Below, piece by piece: positions 5,649 through 59,200 of a stretch of 64,000 nt of DNA. Each line of letters begins with the position of its first letter. Position 1 is the stretch's first letter. The notes below the pieces were generated by a model. The model was not told the origin of the DNA. It searched no databases and saw only the letters and a list, made by a program, of their open reading frames with translations. Made by a program: the position numbers and the translations under genes. This DNA comes from Mytilinidion resinicola (Eukaryota; Ascomycota; Dothideomycetes; Mytilinidiales; Mytilinidiaceae), in the NCBI RefSeq assembly GCF_010093595.1, contig NW_022985457.1:180226-244225 (forward strand), in the 5' to 3' direction.

Positions 5649-7641
5649 TCAAGCCGCCATCTCCTTACTCTCCGACCTCCCTGTCTCTGTCCTCTCCTCG
5701 GCCTTCTGCTCGACCTCTCCAACCTTAGCTAACGTCGCCGCCTGCGCTTCCTTCTCACCCACCCCACCCTTCCCCTCCTCAGCGACCCTCCCCCCATCCA
5801 GTTTCTTCGGGGGCATATTCTTCCTCACACTCCGCCACTCCATCCCCACCGCCCCCAGCACCGCCAAACACGCCATGATAAGCCCCACGCGAAAGACCAC
5901 CTGCAGCGCGCCCATATACGCCCCCAGCGCCCTCCGCCTTTGCTCCACCGGAACCAGCTTCAGCAGCTCCGTCGCCCCCGTCCCCTGAATCGCCTTCGGA
6001 CTGACACTGATGCCTGGAATGCCGGCGAGGCGGTTAGCTAGTTGGTTGTTGAGAACGTTTTGCCCAACGGAAAGAAACACGGCCCCAAACAGCTGCTGCC
6101 CGAAAAACATCAGCCCGGCCCCAATCGCCACCTCCTCGCGCTTCAGCACCGTCTGCGCCGCCATGTTCGGCGCCTGGGCCGCGAAGCCGAAGCCGAGGCC
6201 GTAGATGATTTGGTACCCGATCCAGCCCCCCTTGGACGTGCTAACGGCGAGAGTGGTGAGGAGGCCCGCGCCGATGGCGGTGAGCCCCACGCCGAGGATC
6301 GCGAAGGGGGTATAGTAGCCCACGCGACTGACGAGCTGCCCCGTGACGATGGAGGCGAGCACGACGGGGAGGAGGAGGGGGAGGAGGTGCAGGCCGGAGC
6401 TGACGGCGGAGAGGGAGCGGGTGGCTTGGAAGTAGAGGGGGAGGTAGTAGACTGGGGTTCTGAGGTTAGTCTATAAGACCGTGTTAGAGGGTTGAGGTTT
6501 CGGGTAAAAGAGGGGAGTGAGGAGAGAAGAGAAAGAAGAGGGAGTAGGAGTAAGGCATACCGAATAGCATCTGGTGCGCGCCTAGACACGAGCTGACCCA
6601 GAAGCCGGAGATGATGCTGCGCTGCAGGAAGATGCGCGGGGGGAGGGTGGCTTGGTCGGGTTTCCAGGCCTGGATGGCAACGAAGGCGAGGAGGAGTAGG
6701 AGGACGAGGACGAGGAGGGCGATGATGCGGCCGGAGCTCCAGGGGTGTGTGGTGCCGCCCCATTGGAGTGCGAGACATAGACACACGACGCCGGGGATGA
6801 GGGCGAGTAGGCCCAAGGCGTTGAGTTGGTGTAGTTTGTCTTTGAGAGGAATGTTGGTGGTGGGACGGTCGGGGATGTGGAGGAGGAAGAAGACGAGCAC
6901 CATGACCGCACCGCCTAAGGGGAGGTTGAGGTAGAAGCACCAACGCCAGGTGACTTTTGTGGTGAAGCCGCCGCCGATTAGGGGGCCGGCTACTGAGGAG
7001 ATGCCGAAGACGGCGCCGAAGAAACCTTGGTACTTGGGGCGTCTGTGGAGGGGGACGGCGTAGACGATGATAACCATCTATAGTAGCGTGGTGTAAGCAA
7101 ATATATAGCAAAGACGGACGGGACTAAACGAGGAATGGGGATGTTGAATGATGGTGTCCAAGGAGAGAGATAAACGTACAACGCCCGAGAGAACTCCTCC
7201 CGATCCCAGCCCGGCAATAGCTCTCCCCAATATAAAAGCGATCGAGTTCGGTGCCGCACCACAAAGGGCTGAGCCAACCTCAAACAACAAAATAGACGCC
7301 AGAAACGTAACTTTGATGCTGAAGACTTTGTAGAGCTTCCCAAACACCAGCTGGAACGCGCAGCTTGTGAGTAGGTACGCCGTGCCATACCAGCCAATAT
7401 CGCCAGCCGAGTTGAACTCGTTTGTGATCTGGGGGATAGCGGTCGAAATGATGAGGCGGTCTAGGGATACCAGGAACATGCCGACGAAGATGGATGTCAT
7501 TATAAGTGCGAGCTTGAGACCGGAGGGGTAGACGATGTCGGTCGGCGTGCCCTTGGTATCCTTGGTCTTCTCGCCATCCTTGGGCGCAGATGGCGGTATA
7601 TTGTTCTCCTGTGACTTCTTTCCCTTCTCATGGGACGGCAT
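5649..7641 (-). CDS. MFS drug:H+ antiporter, DHA2 (14-TM) type
   Basis: Three exons on the minus strand: 7641-7180, 7077-6561 and 6451-5649 (1,782 nt, 593 aa). The introns (102 and 109 nt) start GTACGT and GTATGC and end TAG and CAG, and the frame is kept throughout. After a polar N-terminus of about 40 residues come the hallmarks of the fungal multidrug/toxin efflux branch: [13 protein letters not shown] in TM1 (residues 60-72), a motif-A variant [11 protein letters not shown] (101-111), and motif [16 protein letters not shown] (139-153). These are followed by [17 protein letters not shown] and a [13 protein letters not shown] signature. The C-terminal tail is charged, as usual. The predicted role is proton-coupled export of small molecules across the plasma membrane; the substrate cannot be told. 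No biosynthetic genes adjoin it. Confidence 0.92.
7078..7179 (-). other. Intron 1 of the MFS gene
   Basis: 102 nt, donor GTACGT at 7179-7174 and acceptor ending TATAG at 7078. Removing it joins GGVLSGV to [13 protein letters not shown], the expected family sequence. Confidence 0.8.
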
Positions 7642-23140: not shown

Positions 23141-25072
23141 TGCCCACTGCAATACTGCGCAAGAGGTATGTTTTTCTTAGTGAGTTCGGCGTGCTCGGGT
23201 TGAGAAAAGGTGTTGATGCACCGAGGTGATGAGATTCGGTCGAAATATATCTCTAGTACCAATGCCAATGCCACCAAGCTTATCTAAGACGTTTTAGTGG
23301 GTGTTTCAGCCGAGCTCGGTGGACGAACAGCCACAGCGTCCAGGCCATCATTTCATCTGTAAAGTGGTTTACGGGGACACCCCCTCAGGTTTAGGCGGTC
23401 CTTCTCTTCCGGCTTAGCGTGTTTTTCTGCCCTTATGTAATCAGTCTTCGAACCTCCTCTAACTAACTATAAAAACACATACCCTGCTTCTCACTCCACT
23501 TTCTCGTCTTATGCATTACCACCAGATCCCTCCCCTTTTGAATTCCCGCTTGACGAAGGCTTGCATTCGGCTGCATGCCATAGTATAGACGATAGACAAT
23601 TACGGGAAATGTAGGATTTGTTCTAACAAAAGTCTACTATTATAAAAATGGAGGAGCTCGTTTGCGGCTACCTTACTTAGCTAACCAGCCCTGGAAGTCG
23701 GCCTGAATACCACATGACTTAGCTAGAGGCTTTTGCGATGACACAACCTCGACACCTTCCGGCAAGGGGCCACTGTTTATAGAAGTGATCGAGGAGGCGA
23801 CGAAGGAATCGCAGAAGGCGATGGAGGGGTGAATCAAATTTGCTTAGGTCAGCAGGTAAGGCGTGGTAGGGTGCGGAGGAACGATATTGGAGGTTTTTGG
23901 CTTGCAATGAAGACAAAATGAGTAATGAGAAGTGAACGCGTTTGACGCGTTTGGAACGACGCATCGTGATGCTTGGCATGGTGCTGAAGTTGCGAATGAT
24001 GCATGTAGAATATTGGCCTTCAACAACACCACGTCTGCAAAGCGCGTCAGACGAGAATCCGTGTGATGTTCTGTAGACGTGATAAAAGCCGGAAATAAGA
24101 GGCCACGACCCGTCTATGGTGCTGACGCCAAGGCTTTTGGGCGTCCGTCCCCGACGCCGCACTCTTCATTCCCCTCTCCATACACACTCTAGTGGAGCAA
24201 CTTTTACTCTCGAGCCACTGACCAGCGCTAGCATGCTGATACGCTGCAGGACATTGGACTCTCCCGTGACGAACACGCCGTATGTCAAGAATGCCTTACA
24301 GACAGATTTGCGGCGCGTCACCGCAGAGGACGCACTTTGCCTCAGCCGACGTCTCGCGATGTGCGCAGATGCCGCCTGCGCCACGAATGATATACGCCTC
24401 AGTAGAATGTATTCCAGATCCTGGTGCCTTCCGGAAGCCAATGTCGCCCAATCACGTTCGCGGCACAGTCATGAGTGGCAAATCCAGCTTTCAAACATTG
24501 ATGGAGCAAAGAGTGCTCCTCTTGTTGATTGCCAGCCATTCACTGATTTCTCATTGCTTTCTCAGGTGTTCGCTTCCAGCCACCTGTATAAAAGCTTTCA
24601 CCACACAGATAGTTCCACACAACAATATACATTTTTCCCTCCTTGCACCATCAAACATACCACCATAGCCACGCGAAAGCTTGATATGTGCCGCAATCTA
24701 TCCGCAGCTTGTTTCAAAGCGATCGACTTGACGAATCGAACGCCTGTTTATCTCCGAACCTAGTATTGCACACATCTAAATCGTGACTGCTTAGCGCTAC
24801 GCGCCGGCATCTTCATCGCCATGTTGCCAGAAACCCTCTGACGATGCGTCTACTAGAAGCCTCAACACTGGCAGTGCACACCCAACTTTAGCTCCTCCTT
24901 GATTCAGAGATGGCCCCCGATCCCGTGCCGCACCGCGAACTTCACCTACGACGTCGTACCTGGCTCCTCTTGCACTCCATCGCCGCAAATGTGTCCAAAA
25001 GAAATCGAATTTAGATCACAAGGAGCCATGTGTCCTTTTTCAAAGGACACGGTCAGGCAACCCGGGGGAATG
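23141..25072. other. Gene-poor stretch between the regulator and the subtilase
   Basis: Holds a dispersed-repeat fragment (23347-23411). From about 24280 onward it resembles 31137-31470, so it forms the upstream part of the segment duplicated downstream. Open frames at 23719-24162 (minus) and 24116-24763 (plus) lack any recognised domain. Confidence 0.4.
23347..23411. repeat. Dispersed repeat fragment, copy 1
   Basis: About 65 bp matches 40480-40547. Shared words are ATCTGTAAAG, ACACCCCCTCAGGTTTAG and GGCGGTCCTTCTCT, in the same order and orientation. Probably a remnant of one transposon family. Confidence 0.5.
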
Positions 25073-25080
25073 TATATAAG
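25073..25080 (+). promoter_or_regulatory. TATA box of the subtilase gene
   Basis: TATATAAG about 195 bp upstream of the start codon at 25275, followed by the pyrimidine-rich stretch typical of fungal promoters. The motif just upstream, AGGAGCCATGTGTCC, is conserved at 31369 in front of the duplicated relic. Confidence 0.45.
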
Positions 25081-25274
25081 TCTCTCGTCTAACTTCCCCA
25101 TCTTTCCCATTATCTTCTCGCTTGTTCCAGCGTTTCATTTTTACGTCCTTTATCTCTATGATATACATATCACTGTAGGAGAATCTACTACCCTTTCTCT
25201 TTGGCTTCAGAGAAGGTATTTGATCTATTTTTGGGGGTATTAAGGTCATAGGATCAATCACCACTTCAGCCAGT

Positions 25275-28200
25275 ATGCCAGGCCATCCGCGATGGTCCTG
25301 GACGGTTAGATTCCTAGTAAGTGTGCGACCACCTCGATATGCAGATTCTAAATGTCGCAGATTTCAGCGCTCTTGATTGCTTTCCATCAGCTTGTCTTCC
25401 GTAATGAGACTTGGGTAGACCTCGGATACTTTAACAACCTTCCAAAACCCTTGGACCTCTTCCGCCATCCACAATCGAAAACCCAACGTTATCCTACACT
25501 CTTGCTATCCATACCACAAGAAGGCGTTGTTTGGAAGCGAAGCCAAGCGACTGGCTTAGATAGTCCCTTTGGTGGTACTTTTGGTGCTTCCCACTCTGCT
25601 TCTGGTGCTTTTCACTCTGCTTCTGGTGTCTTCGGTCCCACTGGACCCATGTCACCACCTGGGAGTACTAGCACCTTTCAGTCGTATGGAACTTCGGTAT
25701 CGAGCATATTCACATCAGAAAGTTCATCGGGAGGTTCAGACAAAACAGCCGCTCTGTCTTCAACTACGACCTCCGCTGCTTCTAGTTCAAGTTCCTTCGC
25801 TTCAGTGTCATCAGCCAATCAGAATTCAGGCGGCTCCGCTAGCTCCAGCGCTAACATCCCACCTTCTACTGTCCAGGTCACAGCGACCGTCACTTCCATC
25901 CAAACCTCGACCGTCCAAATTACACCGGTGGCCCAAGGACCCGAGATTGTTATCGGTTCGAACACTTATCCGTTCGAAACGAAGACCAGAACTATTACCC
26001 AAGCAAGTGGTGGTAACATCGTAATCGGGCCAACGCAGGTGGTGTGCGGCACAGTCACTATCCCCCTCGGCGTTACCGGCACAGCACCCCAACTACTATC
26101 CTGCCTAGGAGAAACCATGGCGGCTAATCCGGCTCCGACATATAGAAACTTCTCCGATCTCGCGAAAGAATTGGATGTTGTCGTAGATAATCAAGAATTT
26201 GTGATTCTCCCATTCCCGTTCGCAATTCCACGCATACTCCCGTCCGCCACCAAGGTCGACAAGATTGAAATGTCTCCTTCCGGCGTCATTCTTGGAGGAG
26301 CCAACATGCCTATACCATCTGGGCTCACTAAAGAGACTAACCTTGGCAATGGTGTTAAAGCTAAGCTGGGAGGGAAAGAAAAAAAGAAGAAATCCAACTG
26401 TGGGGGCCTATTCGCCGCCATTAAATGCTTGGGTGATACTGCGGGGAAGGCAACAGAAGGAATTGCAGGAATTGTGAAAGACACGGGACCCTTCGTGCAG
26501 GGCACTGTTGATTCCATTGAAGAGGGCGCAATCACTAGTAAATTCAACTTGGTAGACAGCTGTAAGTATCCTAATTATCTATCAATGCTGGCTACCCACC
26601 ATACACATTGCTAACTAGCCCTAGTCGCACAAGACTTCGCGCATACAGTCAACGGCCTCATTGATGATTTCTCTTCTGAATTCTCTAACGACCTTAAGTC
26701 TATAGACGGAAAATTCAAGAGTCCAATACCAGGAGCCGGACCACCAGAAATAGGCCCCCTTCTTAAAAACGCTTGGCTGGAAGCAAAACACATGTCTAAT
26801 GTCGTTAACGGCGCCAAGAACCTGATAGATGCTCTCAAGAAAGGAGGCCCTCCTGATCTCATCGACGACGTGAAAAAGCAGCTAAAAGATCTCTTGAATA
26901 CAAACGTGCCAAAGCCAAAGGGTGGGCTCGGCCTTGAGATCCCAAGCCTGGAAGCCCTCAAGGACCTGGTGCCAGAAGATGACCTGCCAACTGAAAGCGT
27001 TCCCACAACGGCAACCGATCCTACATCGTCGGATCCACAGTCATTAATTTCTTTTCCAACTCTGTCTTTACACACGCTTTCGCATCCTTCTGCTACATCC
27101 GATACATCCTTCGATCAGCAGTCGACAGTTTCTTTTCCAACTCTCTCCTTACCCACGCACTCGCTCCCTTCTGCTACACCAGATATATCGGAGACCTCCA
27201 CGTCGGGAACATCTTCTTTGGCAACGCCGACAAGTGCTCCATTTACAACTCTACCTACTTCAGGGAGAAGCACGTCACTTCAGGCGTCCACCGCGCTACA
27301 GTCAACTCTTTCGACTTCCTTAGGAAGTACCCAGCAGTCTACGGCGGCATCTACGACTACTAGCTCATCAACTTCCTCTTCGTCGTCCTCTCACACGCCG
27401 ACTGCCGCAACCCAAGATTACTTAATCATGACCAAGTTCGGCACAGATTACGATACTTTCTCGAACTTTGTGAAAGACTTAGACAACAATTCCGGCGACC
27501 TTTCGGATCGTAGCAAATTCCCAGGGGTGGAATGGCCATTCTATTGTACTCAGATGAACGAGACGAAAGCTAAAGAATTGACGGATAGTGATAAGTACCC
27601 CTTCATCACAGGGGTTTTCGTTAACTCCCCTGGAGAAGATGGAGAGAGACAGCTGACTGCTGCCATTCCTATCGAAGATAAAAAAGAACATCTGCATGTG
27701 GCACGGGCTCCCCCAGTTCAAGAAGGTGGGTATCCGCCCAACCCGAACCTTGCCCAGAGAAGATGGGGTTCTCAATCAGTCAACCCCCTTAATCACCTCA
27801 ATATGATCTCACAGGCGCTCCCTGGAAAGGTTCCTGACGCGTATATCTTTGATCCGTCTCTTGGTAAGGGCAGTACCATCTACATCATGGATACTGGCTT
27901 TTCGCAAACCACAGTGAGTGAGGTAAGAAACGTATCGTCTTATTTCTCTTTTTCACTTAGTAACATTAGTTCCAGGAATTCGAGATGAATCGTATTAGAT
28001 CCCACGTAGTGCCGAATAGGTTCACACTAAGGGGAATCTCGGACACCACTAGGCACGCCCCGGAAGATATGACGGATATATCTGGGTTCAGAGGAGGTCA
28101 ATATCTTGGGCATGGAACCAGAATGGGCAGTATCGCTGCTGGTCGCTCCGCTGGTGTAGCTTCAAACGCAGATCTTGTCTTTGTTAAGGTCATGAATGCC

Positions 28201-30874
28201 GTTAGACCTCCAGGCTATCAACCACCCGATCAGAATAATCCGCCCGAACAGTCTGGGAAAGAGTTCGCACTGGTAAACCTCCAAGCTGGGGCGTTAATGG
28301 AGGGCTTCGGAGTTATATTTAACGATGTCTACGAACGAAACCTCAAAGGCCAAGCGGTCATCAATCTCAGTCTCAGTAAGAACTCCATGGTATTGATAGG
28401 CTACAATCCTAATGATGCTGCTAGATTCGGTAGAAGACGATCCAAACTTCGATGCCGTTAGCGATGTCATGAAAGCCGCTATTCAAGCATGCGACGATCT
28501 TGGAATCGCAATTGTGGCCAGCGCCGGTAATTTCGGAAATCCGAAACTGGATGAAGGGCAAAAACTATACCCTCTACATAAGAATGCCATAACAATGCAT
28601 GGTACTGACAATAATGCGGTAAGTTCTTTAGATTTAAACATGCCACGAACAGGATATCGATGCACTAACTCATGCCGTCCAGTTGATCACCGTTGGCGGA
28701 ATTGGTCGAGACGGCACCCTTTCGATTGATACGTCACCGCATACGCCCGGTGAAGCCGGTTCAATGACTCTATACGCCGCATTCGATGCGGTATGCGCAA
28801 CTGCTGTAGATTCACCGGCTTTTGCGTCAATGCACGGCACTAGCGCTTCCGCAGCTCTAGTTGTAAGTCGACCTCCTTTTCTAAGCCTCAGAGAAAGGTC
28901 TGTATCAGGTCATTACTAATTTGATGCAGTCCGGGCTCGCAGCATACTTCATGTCACTCGTAGCATTTATTTCGCAAGACTCAGGTTCCCGATTCAAACC
29001 CAGGGATCTCAAGCGATATCTCGTACATTATTCGCGGGAATTACATGAGCGAGGGCAAGCTGTAAGACAACATAATTTAAACAATCTGCAATATGATTAT
29101 CCGCCAACCTCTTGCAACGCTGTCTACAATAGGGCACCAGAAGGGTATGTCCTCTTTGACCTCTTTTCTACCAACAAGGGTGTTGACTTCAATCCCAGAA
29201 TTTGTGTGAGCAACCCCTTGAAGAGAAGGCGCGATTTTCCCGCACATCTGAGAAGGGAAAATGCGCCCATGTCATCCCAAACAGATAGCCCTACCGCAAT
29301 TCCCTCTGGGTTCCCATCTCTCAACGCTACGGAAGTTCTGATCATGTCAAGTGGGACTTTGATAGGGACTGCCTTCGACATACGAGAATTTGGCCTCGCG
29401 TGCACCTCAACTTCTGCAATACCGTCTTTCACCGCGTCGGTATCGTCCGTTTCAACTACCGTATCTTCGTCAGCGTCAACCAAATCACCAGCTTCATCGG
29501 CCTCTCAAGTATCATCGACCACGGCAACTCCGATCACATCTTCTACATCGTTGAGCATACCTCCCACACCGACGTATAAACCTGTAGAAGGCCCCCTATC
29601 ATGCAATAAGGACAAGATGAGCACGTGCCAACAGGGATCTGTCAAACCAAACCATGTCGACGAAGCCGCCAAGGACACATGTACACAACTGCAAAACATC
29701 GACTTCTATCCTAATAATACACGAATCAACGGTTACAGGGCATATGAAGGAGTGAGCTATAACTTCTTCGTTGAGTGGGACATGGGATGTATGAATGAGC
29801 CTAGACACCACTTCGATGATAATCTTGCAGTCTGTAAGGACATGTTCAAAGCCATGGTGTTCAACTGTAAGTCTATATGCCTGTTGTGTAACCATTCGAA
29901 TGGAGATGCTGACATATCTATCAGGCCCAACTAATCACGGCAGCGGTAAGAAAACATGTCTGATATCGCCGCATCTGACGTTGACTAACTCTGAGTAGGT
30001 GGAAACCACACGGAAGGGTGTGTACGACTTGGATTTGAGCCCACGTGTACGGACTCCCCGCCACCGAAGATTACCGAAGGCCCACTGGTGTGTAACGAGA
30101 AGAGAACTTGCCCCACCGATGCCCAAAGCGAGTCTGTAGACTACGTCGCACGGTCATTGTGCGACTCGAACTACAAGAATAATGAGCTGTTCACACCCAA
30201 GGATGGACGATGGGAGGGCAAGACAACCAGAACTACTGCATGGGGTGCTCCGACCCTATATAACGCTTACATGGAGTGGGACACAAGCTGTACCGCTGAA
30301 ACAGAGCATAAACTTGACGGGGATCCCGAGCACTGCATGGAGATGCTGACGGCGCCTTATCATAACTGCCCAAACGGGGGATTTGGTGAATGACTACTTC
30401 CTTCCCCTTCAGCGGCTTAATCTTATCTAATCATGTATTATTGTAGGTGGCTACCACTTAGAAGGCTGTGTTAAATTCGGCATCGACGTCACATGCGACA
30501 TGAAATTAGGCGAAGGTCCTCTCCAGTGCAACCCGACCTGGAACTGCGACGACGAGATTCAAGAATCATTGGTCGAAAAAGCGCTGACAGATTATGAATC
30601 TGCTGTAAACATTGTACGGACACTGTACGCAGACCCCCACAATGATCAGCTGAGCTGGGGTAAAGAGACCCACGGTTCCGCCGTGTACCAGTTTAGTGCT
30701 AGGTGGATAAAGGGATGTACAGCCGAAAATAGCCACGAGGTCTTTGGAGGAGATTGGCATAGTGTTTTTATGAGTACGTGGAAGGATTGTATGGATAGGG
30801 ATAACAATGGAGGGGCCGGTGGCTGGCATCAAGAGGGCTGCGTCGCGTACGGATTCTTCCCGTGGTGCACGTAG
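25275..30874 (+). CDS. Large secreted subtilisin-like protease (S8) with three C-terminal Cys-rich modules
   Basis: Ten exons: 25275-25316, 25361-26561, 26625-27922, 27976-28375, 28425-28618, 28683-28862, 28930-29866, 29925-29945, 29999-30385 and 30447-30874 (5,088 nt, 1,695 aa; frame kept across nine introns). Splicing exon 1 to exon 2 creates a signal peptide (MPGHPRWSWTVRFL then ISALLIAF). A Ser/Thr-rich, probably O-glycosylated part and a helical part follow. The S8 triad is visible: Asp 837 in YIMDTGF, His 893 in LGHGTRMGS and Ser 1099 in MHGTSASAALV, with an ASAGN oxyanion region between. A Ser/Thr linker leads to three homologous modules of about 115-125 aa, from about residues 1325, 1451 and 1576. 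Each starts EGPL-x-C, contains an Ala- or Glu-linked W(D/I)..C, and has GxHxEGCV. The modules might bind substrate or cell wall (inference). The function is extracellular proteolysis. Confidence 0.85.
29925..29945 (+). other. 21-nt microexon of the subtilase gene
   Basis: Encodes PTNHGS plus split codons between introns of 58 and 53 nt. The same microexon with its flanking AG and GT is still visible in the eroded copy at 31950-31970, which supports the gene model. Confidence 0.7.
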
Positions 30875-45435: not shown

Positions 45436-47094
45436 TTACCAGTTGTATTCTTCGGAATCTGAATCCGAAATCAAAATCGGACTCGAGATATAATCTGGAA
45501 GCAATATGCCTTCGGAGTTTCCAATCTTGAAATCGTGGCCAAAGCGATGCCAATCAACACCGTAACCAGAATTCCAGTCCAATTCGACCCCTATCTCTTT
45601 GAAAAAAGTCACGAGATCTTTCTCGCGATCGGTTGGTTCAGATGTACACGCATTTCTACCCACCGCAGCGACTTTAGTCAGCTTCGGCAATTTGTCGTGC
45701 GCGCATTGCCGGAGGCGCTCAAAGCTTTCGGAAGCAACCTCGTACGTGGTCCTTCTTTCAGAGTCCTCCACATTCAATTCTAGAATAGACAGGGATGGCG
45801 GAAGAATGTCTTCTAGAGGCGCCGGATACACAGAATATGGAGGCCCTTCTTCATCATCCTCGTCATGTTCTTCTACGAACAATGCCCTGAACGGAAGTCG
45901 AACATGAGCTAAAGAGCTGAAGTGCTTGAGGGACTTGATTGGCAGCACACGTAATAGACACATTTCAACTGTATCATCACCATCAATGTCTTCTAGGCTC
46001 CATCCCAGGCTGAGGTATTCTAGGGCATCTTTTGCTGGCTCTAGAACTTGTATGATCTCTCGCCATCGATGAAGGGGCTGACGCATCACCCAAGTGTTCA
46101 GACATAGTGTGAAAGATCTGAGGGTTTGACACGAAAGGATTAGCGTTGAGAGCTGAAGTAGGTTTACGGAAGTTTGGTGCAACACCAACTTCGTAATCGA
46201 AGATGTTTGAGGCTTGAACTTATCCATCTCCAGACGACAATATGGGTCGCAGCCATCTGCGCGCAAGGTCTTCAACGATGGCATATTCCAGAAGAATGAC
46301 AAGTCGTTGAAGTCGTGTTTGTACCGTACTCCTATTCCTCCGTCGAGACCTCCGATACCTGTAATGCTGAGACTTTCCAAGTACGATAGACTCGGTCGTA
46401 CTGAGCGGAAGAGCCTTTGCCAGCACTCGGCCGTTGGTTCCCTCATGGAACGCATAAAAAATATACTCTGTAATCTTTGGTTACTGTCATCTATAGCTAC
46501 ACTGAGGTGCTTCAGCTTCGGCGTCAAATTGGCTAGAGTGAGAACTTGTGCCGCTGGACAAAATTTGCCGGCGTAGAGTGACTGGAGTTCCTGAGAGCTC
46601 ACTCGGGTCGAGTCGCCGGGAGGATACTTGATTACAAGTGTGTCGTCTTCGATTGATGAAAACCCAGTAGCCGGCATGTATGAAGGTAGGCATCGGCCTG
46701 GACAACTGGTGTATGTGCAATAGTGAATCTCAAGCTCGAGTTTCTGAACTCTTGCGGCCAGGTCTGGTCGCGATGCAAATGTCCGCAACAGCAGCGCCCA
46801 GTGTGTGTCATCGAGATCGATGATTGGGAGGGAAATGCTGTTGTATATGCGTCGCTCCATCTCTTTATTAAACAGCTTCCCAGTCAGGGAAAGGGCCGCA
46901 GCGTCTCGCGGACTTGACAGCCACGAAGCGATCTCTCCAATCATCTCTATTGGCAGATTGGCAAGACAGGCATTGGTAGCGGTGGAAGCAGCTGCGATCT
47001 GCTGTAGAGGATCATCGGGGGAAATTCGAGCGGTTCGGTTGCCGTGCACGATCGCATCGCTGTCACTGCCCTGTCTTTTGCGCTTGAGCGACAT
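45436..47094 (-). CDS. F-box-like / leucine-rich protein
   Basis: Single exon, 552 aa. A basic N-terminus (MSLKRKRQ) is followed by LANLPIEMIGEIASWLSSPR, DAAALSLTGKLFNK (about residues 43-76), a good F-box. The remainder has irregular leucine-rich stretches (LTPKLKHLSVAI, LSYLESLSITGIGG, MPSLKTLRADGC, ALEYLSLGW) as in fungal F-box proteins that recognise substrates. An acidic segment (EEHDEDDEEG) and an acidic C-terminal tail are present. It is probably an SCF adaptor; the substrate is unknown. It is unrelated in sequence to the F-box-like gene at 40736. Confidence 0.8.
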   Translation of the reverse strand: MSLKRKRQGSDSDAIVHGNRTARISPDDPLQQIAAASTATNACLANLPIEMIGEIASWLSSPRDAAALSLTGKLFNKEMERRIYNSISLPIIDLDDTHWALLLRTFASRPDLAARVQKLELEIHYCTYTSCPGRCLPSYMPATGFSSIEDDTLVIKYPPGDSTRVSSQELQSLYAGKFCPAAQVLTLANLTPKLKHLSVAIDDSNQRLQSIFFMRSMREPTAECWQRLFRSVRPSLSYLESLSITGIGGLDGGIGVRYKHDFNDLSFFWNMPSLKTLRADGCDPYCRLEMDKFKPQTSSITKLVLHQTSVNLLQLSTLILSCQTLRSFTLCLNTWVMRQPLHRWREIIQVLEPAKDALEYLSLGWSLEDIDGDDTVEMCLLRVLPIKSLKHFSSLAHVRLPFRALFVEEHDEDDEEGPPYSVYPAPLEDILPPSLSILELNVEDSERRTTYEVASESFERLRQCAHDKLPKLTKVAAVGRNACTSEPTDREKDLVTFFKEIGVELDWNSGYGVDWHRFGHDFKIGNSEGILLPDYISSPILISDSDSEEYNW

Positions 47095-47763
47095 CTCGGA
47101 CGAGTATCACTGCGACACATTAGAATCTACTTTTGTACCCAAGAGTTGGGCTGCATTGAAGAAAAGATAGAGATTTTACTTACCGCAGTGGTGGTTTGCT
47201 GAGGGGGTTCCCATCAATTGTCGTTGAGAGATGAGGTGAGGTTTGACGCTTGAATCGCTACGCGTCGTTTTACCCTAACGACTCAATTGGACTAGCCCCC
47301 ATCACCTGCGCACGTGATCAAACACTTCTGGAAACCAACTTATCATGTTGTCTAAGGATTCCAACTCGAAGAACATTTGGCCAGTGTGCAAGAATTGAAA
47401 GCTTTGTGATCTGCGCACAAGCGTCCAATTCAGTTCTATTCTTCCTTGGACTCCATATCTAAACTTCCAATCGCTCCAAAATCCGGAAACCAAGAGATCT
47501 GGTGGCTGAGCAGCTGAATAACTAATCAAGACTTCGTAATGCAATAGTCTCCGAAAAGACGATCCGATCCTCAAGGGCAAAACTCAGAATCAGAAATATT
47601 CTTTCCATTCCCAGAACTCATCCCAAAAAACCTATCGTTACGCTAAATCGCAAAACCGTACATCCACTCAAGTATGACATCTTCGGAGCTCACTCACAAC
47701 AGGCGAGCATAACTCCCCAGCATATTCGCAGCTACACGTGGCACCTTCACCCCCATCCCCTTT
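47095..47763. other. Intergenic region, nothing seen
   Basis: Upstream side of the F-box/LRR gene and 3' flank of the UstYa-family gene. No convincing frame or repeat. Confidence 0.5.
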
Positions 47764-48736
47764 CTATGGCGCCCGCTCCAACTCACTCACCCCATCCGGC
47801 TTCGGCCACGGATACCCATCCGGAAACTTATCCCCGGGCCTCCTCTCCCGATCCCACCCCAGCAACCCCTCATAGCTCCTACACTCATGCTTCGTGTTAA
47901 AGTACGGGTACGGGCCGCTAACTCCCTTGACCCACCGGAAGGTTACCAAAGAGGCGTCGGCAGTGCACATAAGCCGGTTGCGGAGCACATCGACGCAGTG
48001 CTCGAAGTGAGCTTCGGTGATGTCGGGCTCGGTAGCGAGTTTGGTAGCGAGGACTGGGAAGAGGTGGCGGAGGTGGGGTTTAGTGTTCCAGTGGTGGTCT
48101 TCCCACAGGGCTTGGAGGCAGTGGAGTTGGTGGGCGGACTCGAGGTAGGCTACATAGCCCTGTAGTGGTAGAGGTGTTAGTAAAAGTTCATTTGAATGCC
48201 TACGATTGATATTGAATGAAGTGGTGGCAGCAGTGCTTAGGTTGGGCACTCACGCCGCCAAACTCCTCCGGATACTGCACCGCATCCGTTGAAAGCTCCA
48301 GCCCCTCCATCTCCTCCCTCGTGATGTTCAACGGCCCGGTATGGGTGATGTGATGCCATCTTGCGAGGATCTCTTCGGTTGGCGGGCCTTTGTACGGCGA
48401 GTCTTCCCAAAACGAGTTCTGGAAAATTTCTGTGTGCGTTGTATCACCCAATGCGTCATCCGCTGGTGTCCATACACCCTGTGCTTTGGTATTATGCTCT
48501 GGCTTTGTGTCTGCTTTCGTGATGTCTCTCAAAATAAGGTTGAGTATTAGGCCGAAGATTATGAGGACGCTGATCACGTGAGCTGCCCAGTGGACGATGT
48601 TGGCGGAGATGGAGTGCTTCCGCCGATTTGAGAACTGTGGAGATTGGAGTTTTTCGAAGTCTGAAGAGGAAGAGATCATGGCGGCGGATTCGCTGTCGGA
48701 CTCTTGTGAGTTGAGAGGGGAGTATGTGGGCGTCAT
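47764..48736 (-). CDS. UstYa-family (DUF3328) oxidase
   Basis: Two exons, 48736-48254 and 48159-47764, with a 94-nt intron (GTGAGT to CTACAG); 292 aa. The N-terminus is cytosolic-looking, and one membrane helix (IVHWAAHVISVLIIFGLILN, about 46-69) anchors it. The lumenal part has the family stretch SPYKGPPTEEI and both conserved HxxHC-type motifs: HQLHCL (171-176) and EHCVDVLR (214-221). In ustiloxin, phomopsin, asperipin and cyclochlorotine pathways, relatives (UstYa/UstYb, CctR-like) oxidise and cyclise peptides, probably with copper. It is divergently oriented to a repeat precursor gene 979 bp away, so it is the likely modifying enzyme of that peptide (inference). Confidence 0.92.
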
Positions 48737-49715
48737 GGTTGTGGAGACGAAGGTGTGAAAGAGACAGGGAGACCTGGGCTTTCGGAGCGGGGAATGACAG
48801 TGTATATCTCTGCTTAGAAAAATAATGTTGGAAAGGAGTACAAACTCGGAAATTCAGAAAAGCTTTACGGCTCCCGACGATGGCTTACGGCACGGATATC
48901 CCGCGTGCGGGGACGAGATAATGTAAAGCACGATGAACCGGGCTATAATTTAGGTATCTAGTCCAGGCTTTTAGGGCGGAGGAATCTAACTGGATTGAGT
49001 CTTGGGATATGGTTGCTCTACGAGCCTAATTTGGAAGCTGCCTATAAAAGATCGACGGATGAAAATCGCCACGCGATTTCGGCCCGCACCAGGAAGGTGA
49101 ACGGTCGTGTAACGTTGAACAAGCTTCGGAGACCCCATAATCGCTTTACTTTGAAGACGCCGTCAGCTTAGAAATCGTCAGCTCTGAATAGTACAACGCG
49201 TATAATTTGAGAATACGATTGTTAACTGATCACGGGCCGATTATTGATGCCGCAAAAGGAAGGAGTAGGATTGCTGGAGCTCCACACCTATCTGAAGCAT
49301 TTTGACAAAACATGGCGTATATCGATTCGCCTTCCCAGTGGGGAAGACGACAGCAAGGGCTAGAAGGCTTAAATCAACCAGTAGAGCTTGTTTCGTGAGT
49401 TGGATCCCATGATGATTGGTTTTATTCGGCGATCCTTGTGGACTTTCACGATACTGCATTGTGTTACCTTCCACATCTGCACAAGAACGCGGTGGAAAAG
49501 AAGGATGCTGGATTCTCAAAGTCAAGACCCGAGAGCGGAGCAAAGACCCGAACCTGGTAAATGGGTCTTTCGTTCGTAATGCAAACTGTGTTCAATCTGT
49601 CAGAAGCCGAGTAATCCATCAGAACCTCTATTGCGGGCGGTCATCTTAAAGCAGAGGCTTCCCACCACTTTCTCAGGCACACCTATCCAAAATAATTTGT
49701 TAACGATAATTCAAT
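48737..49715. promoter_or_regulatory. Shared divergent promoter of the UstYa-like and precursor genes
   Basis: 979 bp separate the two start codons. A near-perfect palindrome CCCGC-GT-GCGGG lies at 48900-48911, with repeated TTACGGC words at about 48865 and 48885. These resemble inverted CGG/CCG sites bound by Zn2Cys6 regulators. A TATAAAAG is at 49043-49050. Function is inferred from position. Confidence 0.35.
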
Positions 49716-50383
49716 ATGCTCTTTAAGTCTTCCGTCGCCGTGGCAGTTCTGTGCGGCTCTGCTGCTGTTTTTGCAGCACCTGTGGCTAGTACGTCATTCT
49801 TTGTTTGCCGAGATCTGTAGAAGCATGCAAAAGAAGCTTAGGATTAACCATTTGTGTAGAGGACGCCCTCGAGTTCACCGGCACCCAATACAGCCACCTG
49901 TACAAGGAGGCGAAGGATGCCGAAGTCGCAAAGCGTGACGCCCAACCTGAAGACGCCCTGGAGTTCGCCGGCGCTCAATACAGTCACCTGTACAAGGAAG
50001 CAAAAGACGCCGAAGTCGCAAAGCGTGACGCCAAACCTGAAGACGCTCTCGAGTTCGTCGGCGCTCAATACAGCCACCTGTACAAGGAAGCGAAGGACGC
50101 TGAAGTCGCAAAGCGTGATGCCAACCCTAAGGACGCCCTCGAGTTCGCTGGCGCCCAATACAGCCACCTGTACAAGGAAGCGAAGGATGCCGAGGCCGCG
50201 AAGCGTGACGCCCAACCTGAAGACGCTCTTGAATTCGCTGGCGCTTCATACAGCCACCTGTACAAGGAGGCAAAGGACGCCGAAGCCGCGAAGCGTGACG
50301 CCAAGCCTGAGGATGCTCTTGAGTTTGCCGGCGCTTCATACAGTCACCTATACAAGGAAGCCAAGGATGCCGAAGCAGCCTGA
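49716..50383 (+). CDS. Secreted Kex2-type repeat precursor, candidate dikaritin-like RiPP precursor
   Basis: Two exons, 49716-49788 and 49860-50383, with a 71-nt intron (GTACGT to TGTAG); 198 aa. The signal peptide is MLFKSSVAVAVLCGSAAVFA. The rest is six copies of a 30-residue unit (90-bp period; the first unit shortened, the last lacking its end), divided by five Lys-Arg sites at residues 49-50, 79-80, 109-110, 139-140 and 169-170. Every unit keeps ALEF, then G(A/T)(Q/S), then YSHLYKEAKDAE(V/A)A. Variation is limited to a few positions, with many synonymous changes, which implies selection on the peptide. Signal peptide, identical repeats, KR sites and a neighbouring UstYa gene together match fungal dikaritin precursors. 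YSHLY, with two Tyr, is the best core candidate. Alternatives are a non-cyclised Kex2-processed secreted peptide or a pheromone; no pheromone-like Trp/Cys/Pro motif is seen. Confidence 0.85.
49860..50383 (+). repeat. 90-bp coding tandem repeat (six units)
   Basis: Units start at 49860 (partial), 49937, 50027, 50117, 50207 and 50297, with an exact 90-bp spacing between KR codons. No unit has an indel. Confidence 0.95.
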
Positions 50384-51700: not shown

Positions 51701-53786
51701 ATGAAGACTTCATCTCTAGTGCTGCAGTTGGCTACGGCTTTGTCGCTTGCGGACAGCACGTTGGGTAAGCTTCGTTGACAGCTCCTTGCGCACGCGACAC
51801 AGCGCTGACATGCCCAGCAAACGCCATATACCAGGAGCCCTCCCTCGAAGCAGCCCGCGCCATCAACGCGTGGAAGCGGGCAGCCCCGGATGCACCAAAC
51901 GGCTACACACCCGCGGCAGTGGATTGTCCCTCCACGCGTCCTACCATCCGCCTCGCGAACGGGCTCTCCGACGAGGAAACATCATGGCTCGAGAAGAGGA
52001 GGAGCAATACTGTGTCTTCGATGCGCGAGTTTCTCGTGCGGATGAACATCACCGGATTCGATGCTGGCGCGTACGTTGACAGCCACGCGAAGAATTCGTC
52101 TGCGATGCCAAACGTTGCGATCGCGGTGTCTGGTGGAGGATGGCGAGCGCTGATGAACGGAGCTGGGGCTTTGGCTGCATACGACAACAGGACGCCTAAC
52201 GCTACCAACACTGGTCAATTGGGAGGTCTGCTACAATCTGCGACGTATCTAGCCGGTCTATCAGGAGGAGGGTGGCTCGTGGGCAGCTTGTTTGTCAACA
52301 ACTATACTTCGGTTCAGGACCTCATCAACTCGACCCCAGATCAATCGGGAGACCTGTGGCAATTTAGCAACTCCATTCTCAAGGGTATGATCATCTGCAG
52401 CCCTTGCCCGTGTTGAAGTATTCCAGATTGATGTGCTAATGGCTTTTAGGACCGGAATCTGGCGGGATCCAAATTCTCTCTACCGTTCAGTACTACGACG
52501 ATCTTTACGACACTGTGAATGCCAAATCGGAGGCACGCAACTTCAACACCTCTTTGACCGATTATTGGGGCCGTGCGCTTTCTTTCCAGCTTGTCAACGC
52601 AACGGACGGAGGTCCAGCCTACACCTGGTCCTCCATTGCAAATGACACAGAGTTCGCCGCAGGCAATACTCCCCTACCCATCCTCGTAGCGGACGGCCGT
52701 GCTCCAGGCGAGATCCTGATCTCTGGAAACGCGACCAACTACGAGTTCAACCCTTGGGAGATAGGTAGCTTTGACCCAACTGTTTACGGCTTCGCGCCGC
52801 TAAGATATGTCGGCTCAAATTTCACTGGTGGCAAAGTCGATTCCAACCAGCAATGTATCGAGGGCTTTGACAATGTTGGATATGTCATGGGCACCAGCTC
52901 TTCCCTCTTCAATCAGCTGATACTGAATCTCAACTCGACCGACGCTCCGCAACTACTGAAGTCCGTCATCGCCAACGTGCTTACGGATCTTGGTGAAGAC
53001 CAGAACGATATTGCGGACTGGACACCCAACCCCTTCTACCACTTCAACAACAAGACAAACCCAAACGCCGCAAACAAGCGTCTCACTCTTGTCGATGGCG
53101 GCGAAGATCTTCAAAATATCCCGCTAAACCCTCTCATTCAGCCTGTCCGCCACGTCGACGTTATCTTCGCCGTCGATTCTTCGGCCGATACCACCGCAGA
53201 CAATGGTGCGGCCAATTGGCCCAATGGCACTGCTCTCGTCGCAACCTACCAGCGTTCGCTGAACGAGACCATCGAGAACGGCACCGCCTTCCCTTCAATC
53301 CCAGACCAAAACACCTTTGTAAACCTAGGCCTGAACAAGCGCCCGACCTTCTTCGGCTGCGACAGCTCCAATTTCACCGGAGACGCGCCCCTCGTCGTCT
53401 ACGTCCCCAACACGCCCTACGTCTACAACTCTAACGTCTCCACTTTCACACTCTCCTACAACAACACCGAGCGTAACGCCATCATTGAGAATGGCTACGA
53501 TGTCGCCACGATGGCCAACGGCACGCTCGATGCGGATTTCCCCGCCTGCGTGGGCTGCGCGGTGCTGAGTCGGTCTCTGAACAGGACAGGCACGACGGTG
53601 CCAGATATTTGCAAGACCTGCTTTACAAAATACTGTTGGGATGGCACGCTCAACAGCACAAATCCCGGGAAGACCTTTGCGTCAAGTAAGCTAGTGCAGA
53701 TCAAGGTGTCTGCTGCTGGCACGTTCGTACCCAACGCGATGGGAGCGGTCGCTGCGATAGCAGCGGCTGTTTTCTTGATGTTGTAG
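51701..53786 (+). CDS. Phospholipase B / lysophospholipase, GPI-anchored
   Basis: Three exons: 51701-51764, 51818-52384 and 52450-53786 (1,968 nt, 655 aa), with introns of 53 and 65 nt. It starts with a signal peptide ([20 protein letters not shown]). The cPLA2-type catalytic set is present: [11 protein letters not shown] (126-136), the nucleophile Ser near 170 in [13 protein letters not shown], and the catalytic Asp in [15 protein letters not shown]. Many NxS/T sites suggest heavy glycosylation. The C-terminus ([18 protein letters not shown]) is a GPI-attachment signal. The length matches fungal Plb1-type enzymes, which release fatty acids from phospholipids at the cell surface or outside. 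It follows the RiPP-like pair, but a shared role is not indicated. Confidence 0.93.
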
Positions 53787-56236: not shown

Positions 56237-59200
56237 CTATGTTGTATACACTAACCAATCCGGGTCGGCATCTTCATCTTCCGGGTCTTCAGACAGTAAT
56301 GAGTTGCGGTCTTCATCGCTCGATTGCTCGTCGTTGTCCGCGGGCTGTGCGGGTTTTGGATCTTGCCAAATTTCTGCAGCTTGCTCTTCAACCTGAATCG
56401 AGGTTCCGTCTTGAGCTGGTTGTTGGCTTGTCGAGTCTGATTCTGCGGTCATGGAGACGCTTGCAGGCGCTGATGGTTGAGAGGACTGTGGCATTTTTTG
56501 CATTGCGCTGTCTCTCGATTCTGCGGGCACGGGGAGCTGGGCGGGTTCCAGTTGCTCGACTGAATCATCTTTGGATATATCGTCGACGATGAATCCACCC
56601 GCTGTGTCCATTTCCATTGGATCACTCTGCTGCCGAGGAGGGACCCTGTGACTCTCCTCTGGAAGAACTTCTTCGTCTGGAATGAATCTTCTACCTTGAT
56701 CGCCCGGACTATCTGGTATAAAGCTACCTCTTATATCGCCTGGGTCTGCTTTGAGCGACTCTTGATGCTGAGGTATCGTTCGCGTACTTCGTGGTGTGAT
56801 TGAGACCTGTTCTAAGAGCGAGCTTCCGAAGCTATTGGCATTTTCTGGAATAAAATCAATCACTACATCCGAGATAACTCTACCCCTAGAAGTGCCATCG
56901 AACCCAAAGTGCTCGTGCTCGTATTCATTCCTAGCCTCCATTGGATCAATGGTCCCCAAATTAGCGCCAGGAAAGAAGCCACCAGCCATTTGCTGCTCGT
57001 CAAGGTGCTCTTCCTCTTGATCCAGCTCTTCTTGGAGGTTTACCTTGTCCTCTTTGATTTCGTATCCCGCGACTCTCTGGGCGATCCGGAGACCAAGAGA
57101 AAATCGTCTCCAAAGCCGCAACGCTTCCGCACTGCGTAAAGCATTCTGTGCATCTTCTTGTGCCTGCAGCATTCCTTTCAAGACAGCTTCGATCGCTTCT
57201 CGATACTCGGCGGCAACGATGATACCCTGGATGACTGCAGTGCCATGTCGGCCTCTAAATTGGAAGCCCGTCACAGCGTCGGCGAAGTCAACCCCGACGG
57301 TTCGTGCGGCCTTCGCTGCTTCAAGTGCGCGGATATGTACACCTCCCATTGGGATCATGGATGGCACGTAAATGTCGAGATTTCCGAATGCGTTCCGAGG
57401 TACCCTACCGCGGACGACGGGCGGAGGGACGTATAGCTCTGTCTGAAATCCTGCGTATAATCCGACGCCGACATCTTCCATGTCTTCGGCGTCGAGTTCG
57501 TCGGGACCAAGAGAGCTTCGAGCTCCTTTTCGAGGTTTGGCGTGTTTCAAGGGCTGTTCACCCTCCTTCACTTCTCGTCCCATTCGATACCATTTATCTC
57601 CGCTTCTCACAACATGCACGTCGCGTCTACGGTAGATAGGTTCCATTTTACTTGCAGTTGCGCTTCCTACGTTGATCTTGCCAACTTGGTTCTTGGGTTG
57701 GATGATCTCGTTATGCCTGAGGTGTCTCTCAAGTACGTATATAGGATGACCTTTGAAGTCTTGAACGTTTCGCGGGATTCCTTCTGCAGCCTCTCTGCGT
57801 GCAAGCTGAGCGTCTTCGACCTGATCTCTGTCTAGAGTCGTCCTTCTTCTGAAGATTTTCAGTGCTTTCTTCCACCATTTCGCACCTCCTTCAGTACTCT
57901 CAACTCTGGCCTTGCGAGTCTTCGCATTCAGTGCTTTCGCATATCTCGGCGTAACGTCTCTCGCTGACAGGTCTTCTTCAAACGCCACTGCGTAGCTAAG
58001 CGTATTCTGTGAGTAGCTCATGGGAGGTTCGATTTTATCTGGTCTGTTGGCGGTGGAAGAAGAGTGTGGGTCTACTACAATCCATTTCTGCAATGCGAAA
58101 TCGAACGCTTCAACCCAATAAACCGGGTATGCTGTATGATAGTTCTTCTTGGGTTTCGGTAACGGGGGAGCTTTGCCAGCATCGTATGTCTTCTGACCTG
58201 TCAAGAACTGCCCAAGCTTGGATAGTCGCACGGGACGCTGCCGCAATGGAGTAGATGGAGTGTTCGAAGCAGACGCGACCGGGGCTGTGGACTTGCTTGG
58301 GGAAATATCCGAATTGTATGGGTCCAGGACAATGCGATTCGTCTTGGAGATTGACTGGGGAGTGGAGCTTTGAGCAACCGATGAGAACGGCAGACACTGT
58401 AAAGAGCAAACCAGTCTGGCTTCTACGCCGATTCCTCGAAGAAGTGCACAAAATAACTGAGCTCCGACGTCCTGAGAACCTCGAAGTGTGTGTGCCGCAG
58501 TGCGGAAGTCCGGACATTCCATAGGGGGGTCGAGCTCATCGAATTGGTTGAACTTCAAAATTGGACAGAGTTAGGACCAATGCATTCCTGTTGAGTTCAT
58601 TTAAAGACTTACATCTAGAACGGCCTCCTCACTATCAGCCCACCGTGGCTTATGGAGTCCCATGGCTGTGATAGAGAATCTCTGCGACCATAAATCTTTG
58701 AGTCTCACCAGCCCATCTAAGAACAATGCTGATGATTGCCCTTGATTTTGTTCTGGATCTTGGGCAAGTTTCTCAATCAGCTTGACGTTGACCAGTTTTC
58801 GCAAGGTAGCCTGAAATACTGTCAAATTATGCTAAGATACGTAGAGCGTTGCAAATACCTGCGTCTTGAAGTCGTTGCACCATGCGTTTCTCAGATGAAC
58901 GTGGTAGAGCAGACACAAGATGTGCATCTTATGGATATCAAGCCTTAATTTTTTCTCTGCAGCAGTCACCCCTTTCCGCCGCACTTGCTTCCTTGCCTTT
59001 TGGTCATTTTTGTCGCCGCCCAGGACAATGGAAATGTCTCCAATGGGACGTTCCTCGTCCGACTTCTGATCCCCTTCCTCGGCCTGATCTATACCAACGT
59101 CTTCCCATTCTAGATCACTTTCCTCGGATTCTTCGGAGTAATCTGTAACCGTTTGTAGCAGCCGAGTCCCATTGTAACCATTGTCCACCGAATCGTCTTG

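Follow-up and report, generated by a model that had tools for sequence, protein, structure and literature searches.

A UstYa oxidase beside a secreted repeat precursor

What is made where the gene of a UstYa-family oxidase faces, head-to-head, the gene of a secreted protein built of Lys-Arg-separated repeats? Two such genes adjoin each other in a 64,000-nucleotide stretch of the genome of the bark-dwelling fungus Mytilinidion resinicola (C21:180226-244225 of a genome of 47.1 Mb in 44 contigs), which we call the window. Loci for ribosomally synthesized and post-translationally modified peptides (RiPPs) that join a Kex2-cut repeat precursor (KEP) to a UstYa protein have been known as a kind since ustiloxin, and an original prediction, made from the DNA of the window, took this pair for a candidate locus of that type. 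Judging from the sequence, we conclude that the two genes probably form a RiPP locus of the KEP/UstYa kind, which would add a member to a peptide-making system that is common in fungi.

The precursor is the product of a two-exon plus-strand gene (198 aa) and is of secreted type, built of six repeats with Lys-Arg at five sites (Table 1). Its signal peptide, judged by inspection and hydropathy rather than by a dedicated program, is predicted to be cleaved between MLFKSSVAVAVLCGSAAVFA and AP; repeat 1 directly adjoins the signal region, and repeat 6 runs to the stop codon. An alternative intron of 53 nt (49789-49841) would give a protein of 204 aa and alter just the residues ahead of repeat 1. 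Six 30-residue repeats separated by Lys-Arg had been predicted; the number six is right, but the Lys-Arg sites number five and the last repeat has just 23 aa. The repeats follow the consensus DAxPEDALEFAGAxYSHLYKEAKDAEVA-KR, in which DALEF, G, YSHLYKEAKDAE, A, KR, DA, and P are invariant and the variable residues are Thr/Ala/Val, Thr/Ala, Gln/Ser, Val/Ala, Gln/Lys/Asn, and Glu/Lys. The conserved block, YSHLYKEAKDAE plus DALEF, extends beyond YSHLY, the core first proposed. Two Tyr and one His are kept in all six repeats, which contain neither Cys nor Trp. The two features by which precursors of this class are recognized, a signal peptide followed by repeated cores between Kex2 sites and Tyr within the repeated sequence, are both present. 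The computed [M+H]+ values are 3066.433 for DAQPEDALEFAGAQYSHLYKEAKDAEVA, 2655.257 for EDALEFAGAQYSHLYKEAKDAEVA, and 682.320 for YSHLY.

The repeat array, which is the top-scoring tandem repeat of the window (90 bp), is not a chance product. Variation among the repeats is confined to 28 of 90 columns, distributed 5/3/20 over codon positions 1/2/3 (30 columns each; Fisher p = 5e-7, a guide only because the repeats are not independent of each other). Mean pairwise dN is 0.06 and dS is ~1.07, the latter a noisy value from 14 of 15 pairs (one pair gave no dS). Because the variation falls mostly on third codon positions, the peptide is constrained in this frame. The gene is single-copy in the genome, a second match there being the gene itself in another, overlapping reading. 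Four Pfam matches to the precursor were set aside as repeat sums in which no individual stretch was significant: RIIa and DUF2508, which pass their cut-offs as whole-protein sums, and APC_u13 and Arena_ncap_C, which fall below theirs.

The oxidase is the product of a two-exon minus-strand gene (292 aa) of the UstYa/DUF3328 family. The prediction of a DUF3328 protein with one membrane helix holds: Pfam PF11807 matches at E 2e-45, covering positions 8-220 of the 220 in the profile, and the single hydrophobic stretch lies at residues ~47-70. The spacing of 979 bp given for the head-to-head pair is exact when counted between start codons. Of the predicted motifs HQLHC and EHC, the first is present, but the second is really the end of another full HxxHC motif, HFEHC; its residues and those of the first (H171, H174, C175, H212, H215, and C216) show no variation across an alignment of 21 rows. 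Two HxxHC motifs have been proposed as a hallmark of RiPP-related DUF3328 proteins (PMC12048977), and by that later definition of the class, the oxidase belongs to it. UstY enzymes are said to employ a dicopper site; one example is asperipin-2a, in which Tyr-O is joined to Phe-Cbeta (PMC12186524).

The oxidase gene offers further in-frame splice options; we chose the model given here because it reads through GGGYVAYLES, matching the aligned relatives. The public M. resinicola protein BDZ99DRAFT_397559 is identical to the oxidase across 93% of its length and begins at the second Met, 19 residues short, and for the precursor no public protein turned up among those of 0.55-1.75 times its length; the oxidase N terminus and the precursor appear to be an annotation gap in the public models. 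A relative from Lepidopterella palustris (P0002) has 59% identity. The 20 protein matches are mostly hypothetical or unnamed, one being called just "Mycotoxin biosynthesis protein UstYa" (P0007) and another being named for cyclochlorotine protein O (P0013, 37% identity). No solved-structure relative was found by sequence (best E 0.98), and none of the 37 fold matches listed for an AlphaFold model of the oxidase (mean pLDDT 73.5) reached E<=0.001.

Recurrence of the pairing within the genome

Does the pairing recur? Genome-wide, PF11807 gave 32 exon matches. Grouped by eye, these make up ~24 genes, which occupy 20 places; a profile made from alignment A1 did not confirm L019 and L029. Around the 19 places other than the window pair, 10 kb each (8.5 kb in one case) was scanned twice for dibasic sites with similar segments between them and was also read by eye. 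KEP-like genes were found in five of these 19 stretches (L012, L014, L015, L017, and L023, the last missed by the strict scan), a recurrence that bears out the proposed Kex2-repeat precursor and UstYa pairing as a candidate RiPP locus. By inspection, all five have a signal-like N terminus, and their repeat sequences differ from those of the window (Table 1). Four of the five pairs are divergent, as are five of six with the window pair included; in L023, the KEP gene lies downstream of the UstYa gene on the same strand. The gaps between KEP and UstYa genes range from ~0.6 to ~2.1 kb, the starts of the other oxidases being estimates.

No KEP was accepted in five random stretches (60 drawn) or in the remaining window, and a shuffled version of the 19 UstYa stretches gave zero matches in the KEP scan. 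Several candidates were rejected: repeats at L022 (9475-9999) lie beside an N run with no signal peptide seen by eye, a control match (L034, 4573-5316) is Lys-rich and coiled-coil-like by eye, and further matches of the lenient scan in L012, L015, and the window are out-of-frame or antisense readings of the true repeats.

KEPs average 5.25 per Ascomycota strain according to Umemura (PMC7329392), from which ~0.02 would be expected in the 188.5 kb of the other UstYa stretches; five were found. This count, the third-position pattern of the repeats, the canonical intron, and the signal peptide make it very improbable that the two genes of the window are adjacent by chance or that a gene model is not expressed, although the oxidase is in the protein collection that we searched and the precursor is not. 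In the same survey, which covered 7878 KEPs, 22% have DUF3328 genes nearby, the count peaking at the gene adjoining the KEP, and Tyr is more frequent in the repeats of DUF3328-near KEPs (65.6% vs 38.2%) (PMC7329392).

A single clade of KEP-partner oxidases was considered and rejected: on the oxidase tree, the KEP-partner label (6 of 38 rows) takes 5 changes, and 122 of 500 shuffles are equally low. Many rows of this tree are exon fragments, and some branches are long; it omits the weak L019, L027, L028, and L029 matches, the third L015 match, and the window protein itself (P0001). Among the KEP-partner oxidases, only those of L017 and L023 group (99/97). The KEP partners are not one clade, so the pairing is spread across the UstYa family.

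The KEPs of L017 and L023, whose UstYa partners are these tree sisters, have Trp and no Tyr in their repeats (SGLWW and FWQSGDW), a possible sign of a UstYa subgroup directed to Trp. L015 (G000:C20:694500-704499) is a fuller candidate RiPP cluster: in its 10 kb, a KEP gene whose repeats read DTTAYKALAENPTQVASDDEVNLLAARIGYKDKR is accompanied by three UstYa matches and by a Methyltransf_2 (O-methyltransferase) domain. In L014 (G000:C1:761300-771299), a very Tyr-rich KEP with FGYYGSYRPYASYGSY-like repeats (1660-2607, minus strand) is divergent from a UstYa gene, which has Sen15, GLTP, and GH76 frames on its side (the other side was scanned partly).

Surroundings of the pair

Is the locus more than two genes? 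The window has 57 stop-to-stop frames of >=120 aa; a Pfam scan took in 28 of them and the two gene models, which cover three more; from 38876 to 62872, the scan took every such frame except 47526-47897, and small exons may escape detection. Within this scope, the neighborhood of the pair shows no recognizable methyltransferase, tyrosinase, P450, or transporter, in agreement with the original prediction on the first two, and the sole major facilitator superfamily (MFS) frame (5652-6470) lies ~40 kb away. Because no tailoring gene was recognized among the scanned neighbors, the locus appears to consist of two genes only. The prediction that this would be an unusually minimal pathway, however, is not supported. 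Asperipin-2a needs four genes (PMC10512285) and one DUF3328 protein (PMC7329392), so a locus with few or no tailoring genes is nothing exceptional, and the L014 pair in the same genome has on one side the Sen15, GLTP, and GH76 frames noted above. The locus falls outside the original dikaritin definition of Ding et al., as told in PMC12048977, which lists a tyrosinase, a methyltransferase, multiple DUF3328 proteins, and a transporter or peptidase; among the scanned frames, none of the other genes is nearby, and there is one UstYa only.

The gap between the start codons is a candidate shared promoter region. The five divergent intergenic stretches have no common motif beyond chance; an 8-mer present in four of the five gaps was considered as a shared promoter element and judged to be chance (50 mononucleotide shuffles average 0.24, up to 2). 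Elsewhere in the window, a long series of open frames on the plus strand (24857-30871) includes a subtilase match below cut-off (27970-28458, E 0.005) and, at 29995-30871, Cys-bearing stretches matching no Pfam family.

Table 1. Features of the precursor and oxidase genes, their neighbors in the window, and the repeats of the other KEPs
Feature	Position	Strand	Details
Oxidase exon 1	48254..48736	-	Residues 1-161; membrane helix ~47-70
Oxidase intron, 94 nt	48160..48253	-	GTGAGT...CTACAG; reading backed by alignment of relatives
Oxidase exon 2	47764..48159	-	Residues 162-292 and stop
First HxxHC motif, HQLHC	48118..48132	-	Residues 171-175; alignment
Second HxxHC motif, HFEHC	47995..48009	-	Residues 212-216; alignment
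Gap between start codons, 979 bp	48737..49715	.	Candidate shared promoter region
Precursor exon 1	49716..49788	+	Signal peptide 49716-49775, then residues APVA; cleavage site by inspection
Precursor intron, 71 nt	49789..49859	+	GTACGT...GTGTAG
Precursor exon 2	49860..50383	+	Six repeats and stop codon
Repeat 1	49862..49951	+	DALEFTGTQYSHLYKEAKDAEVA-KR-DAQPE; KR 49931-49936
Repeat 2	49952..50041	+	KR 50021-50026
Repeat 3	50042..50131	+	KR 50111-50116
Repeat 4	50132..50221	+	KR 50201-50206
Repeat 5	50222..50311	+	KR 50291-50296
Repeat 6	50312..50383	+	DALEFAGASYSHLYKEAKDAEAA, 23 aa, no subsequent KR; includes stop
Neighbor, F-box-like frame	40724		Pfam scan; weak, under cut-off
Neighbor, DUF3176 frame	42435		Pfam scan
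Neighbor, no assigned family	45436-47094	-	Pfam scan
Neighbor, lysophospholipase	51769-53783		Pfam scan
Neighbor, Rad4	56240-58570		Pfam scan
L012 KEP repeats			NFEADAMLAVAR...SSYA
L014 KEP repeats			FGYYGSYRPYASYGSY
L015 KEP repeats			TAYKALAENPTQ...ARIGYKDKR
L017 KEP repeats			PSVDASNGSGLWW
L023 KEP repeats			EEASEDLAFWQSGDW

Discussion

In the reading that we favor, the signal peptide would take the precursor into the secretory pathway, Kex2 would cleave after the five Lys-Arg sites, and a Kex1-type carboxypeptidase would take off the Lys-Arg tails; cleavage by Kex2 and Kex1 is described as the standard processing of KEPs (PMC6339444). This would yield six near-equal peptides of ~24-28 residues, each with the invariant block YSHLYKEAKDAE. 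The membrane-anchored UstYa enzyme, presumably with a copper pair held by its two HxxHC motifs, would oxidize the peptides inside the lumen. The two tyrosines would be the most probable sites, a cross-link meaning the loss of 2 H; hydroxylation or desaturation of the peptides would be the alternative chemistry. The divergent layout may provide joint expression of the two genes. The genome encodes one match to P_proprotein (Kex2-type), one to DPPIV_N (Ste13/DPAP-type), and 26 exon matches to S10.

Several points weigh against this reading. First, beyond the pair, no tailoring, transport, or regulatory gene was recognized nearby. Second, the repeats have 30 residues, whereas repeats of 13, 14, and 8 are typical of ustiloxin, phomopsin, and asperipin-2a, respectively (PMC7329392). 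Third, no relative of the precursor was found at E<=1e-3 or E<=10 among 43 word-sharing candidates (0.55-1.75 times 198 aa) from a collection of 5.8 billion proteins; the precursor itself is missing from that collection, and thus the negative shows absence there as a protein only and is uninformative on conservation. Fourth, five of 19 UstYa stretches versus none in ~10 stretches' worth of control is not significant alone (p ~0.1, one-sided). Because this within-genome control is small, the weight of the pairing rests on the published KEP density. Finally, the KR-DA-xP pattern of the precursor resembles that of linear pheromone precursors (PMC6339444).

This last point bears on whether the peptides are modified at all. 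DA-xP (x = Q, K, or N) follows Lys-Arg at all five sites of the precursor, a Ste13 signature like that of linear, pheromone-like KEPs. Le Marquer et al. regard KEPs bearing this signature as candidate peptide hormones and describe it as absent from ascomycete toxic-cyclic-tetrapeptide proteins and epichloecyclin precursors (PMC6339444). The precursor could then give linear, unmodified secreted peptides (a hormone, a repellent, or an effector-like KEP), and the UstYa protein would act on something else. It is in keeping with this that 6120 of 7878 KEPs (78%) were reported to have no DUF3328 neighbor (PMC7329392) and that polyketide and nonribosomal pathways, too, employ UstYa proteins (PMC12048977). 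On the other hand, the two genes are neighboring and divergent, a KEP adjoins a UstYa gene in five more places in the genome, two Tyr and one His are kept in every repeat, and the Ste13 pattern arises in 7.5% of shuffled repeat units. We consider a linear product unlikely.

A narrower possibility is that the precursor is a mating (alpha) pheromone gene, with which it shares the signal peptide and the Lys-Arg repeats. Its Ste13-like spacers, DA followed by QP, KP, or NP at five of five sites, resemble the XA/XP dipeptides of such genes, but composition alone would give this pattern at the rate just stated. Its repeats, however, have no Cys, Trp, or PYGxPxG, whereas the pheromone subgroups are described as marked by two conserved Cys or by PYGxPxG (PMC6339444), and it has a UstYa neighbor, whereas 98.6% of 216 putative fungal pheromone KEPs in the survey of Umemura have no DUF3328 neighbor (PMC7329392). 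We regard this identity as extremely improbable.

If the product is modified, by what chemistry? Tyr is the linked residue of ustiloxin, phomopsin, and asperipin-2a (PMC7329392), and for this reason, modification would be likeliest at the His and the two Tyr within YSHLY; in victorin, the linkage is through Phe and Leu (PMC9233826). Cyclization at YSHLY is only plausible, because DUF3328 proteins also hydroxylate, chlorinate, and desaturate (PMC10880069; PMC12048977). Reactions reported for the family comprise oxidative cyclization, chlorination, hydroxylation, and transacylation, and PhomYc/d/e lead to dehydroamino acids (PMC10880069). Hydroxylation, desaturation, or another oxidation of the peptide without a YSHLY macrocycle would also fit the finding that none of the 20 matches to the oxidase carries the name of a characterized cyclase. 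Against it stands asperipin-2a, where a pathway with a single UstY cyclizes a Tyr-bearing core (PMC7329392). We judge such a non-macrocyclic product somewhat unlikely.

Asperipin-2a, from Aspergillus flavus, is among the nearest likenesses to the locus, with a signal peptide, Kex2-cut Tyr-bearing repeats, a lone DUF3328 oxidase, and few genes, but its repeat is shorter and its core is different, and it uses four genes versus the two recognized here. The YxIx dikaritins ustiloxin and phomopsin likewise have a KEP precursor and DUF3328 oxidases; their EDYxI/YxIx core (PMC6339444; PMC7329392) is absent from the window repeats, which are paired with one UstYa rather than two or five, and their tyrosinase and methyltransferase were not recognized near the pair. 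The other five pairs of this genome share with it a KEP close to a UstYa gene and differ from it in their repeats and in UstYa partners that are scattered on the family tree.

The favored two-gene RiPP reading also leaves room for a different trimming of the peptide. In L017, XA follows two of three Lys-Arg sites (NA, NA, then EV), and in L023, it follows eight of nine dibasic sites; it follows none in L012 and L015 and one site only in L014. Some UstYa-paired precursors may use pheromone-style trimming, for which these sequences offer thin evidence: the pattern arises by composition at the rate given above, repeats are mutual copies, and 17 of 76 Basidiomycota pheromone-like KEPs were already noted to have DUF3328 neighbors (Umemura, PMC7329392). 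A hybrid of pheromone-style and dikaritin-style maturation would have only the general Golgi peptidases Kex2, Kex1, and Ste13 release a peptide of ~24 residues, EDALEFAGA[Q/S]YSHLYKEAKDAE[V/A]A, with DA-xP trimmed by Ste13. The lone UstYa enzyme would then staple it, for example by a Tyr-Tyr or Tyr-His bridge across YSHLY, giving a cross-linked secreted hormone with no tiny toxin core excised. We hold this to be doubtful. If it were true, the two-gene cassettes of the window, L017, and L023 would represent a module that recurs in this genome and can be swapped.

By itself, the locus reveals no new kind of system. A 2022 review counts only five dikaritins against thousands of predicted KEP genes (PMC10512285), and given that disproportion, compact two-gene loci would be handy tests of what a lone UstYa enzyme does with an unfamiliar core. 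The window locus offers a defined substrate/enzyme pair with predicted masses, and a single genome with at least six KEP/UstYa pairs of differing repeats may serve as a natural panel.

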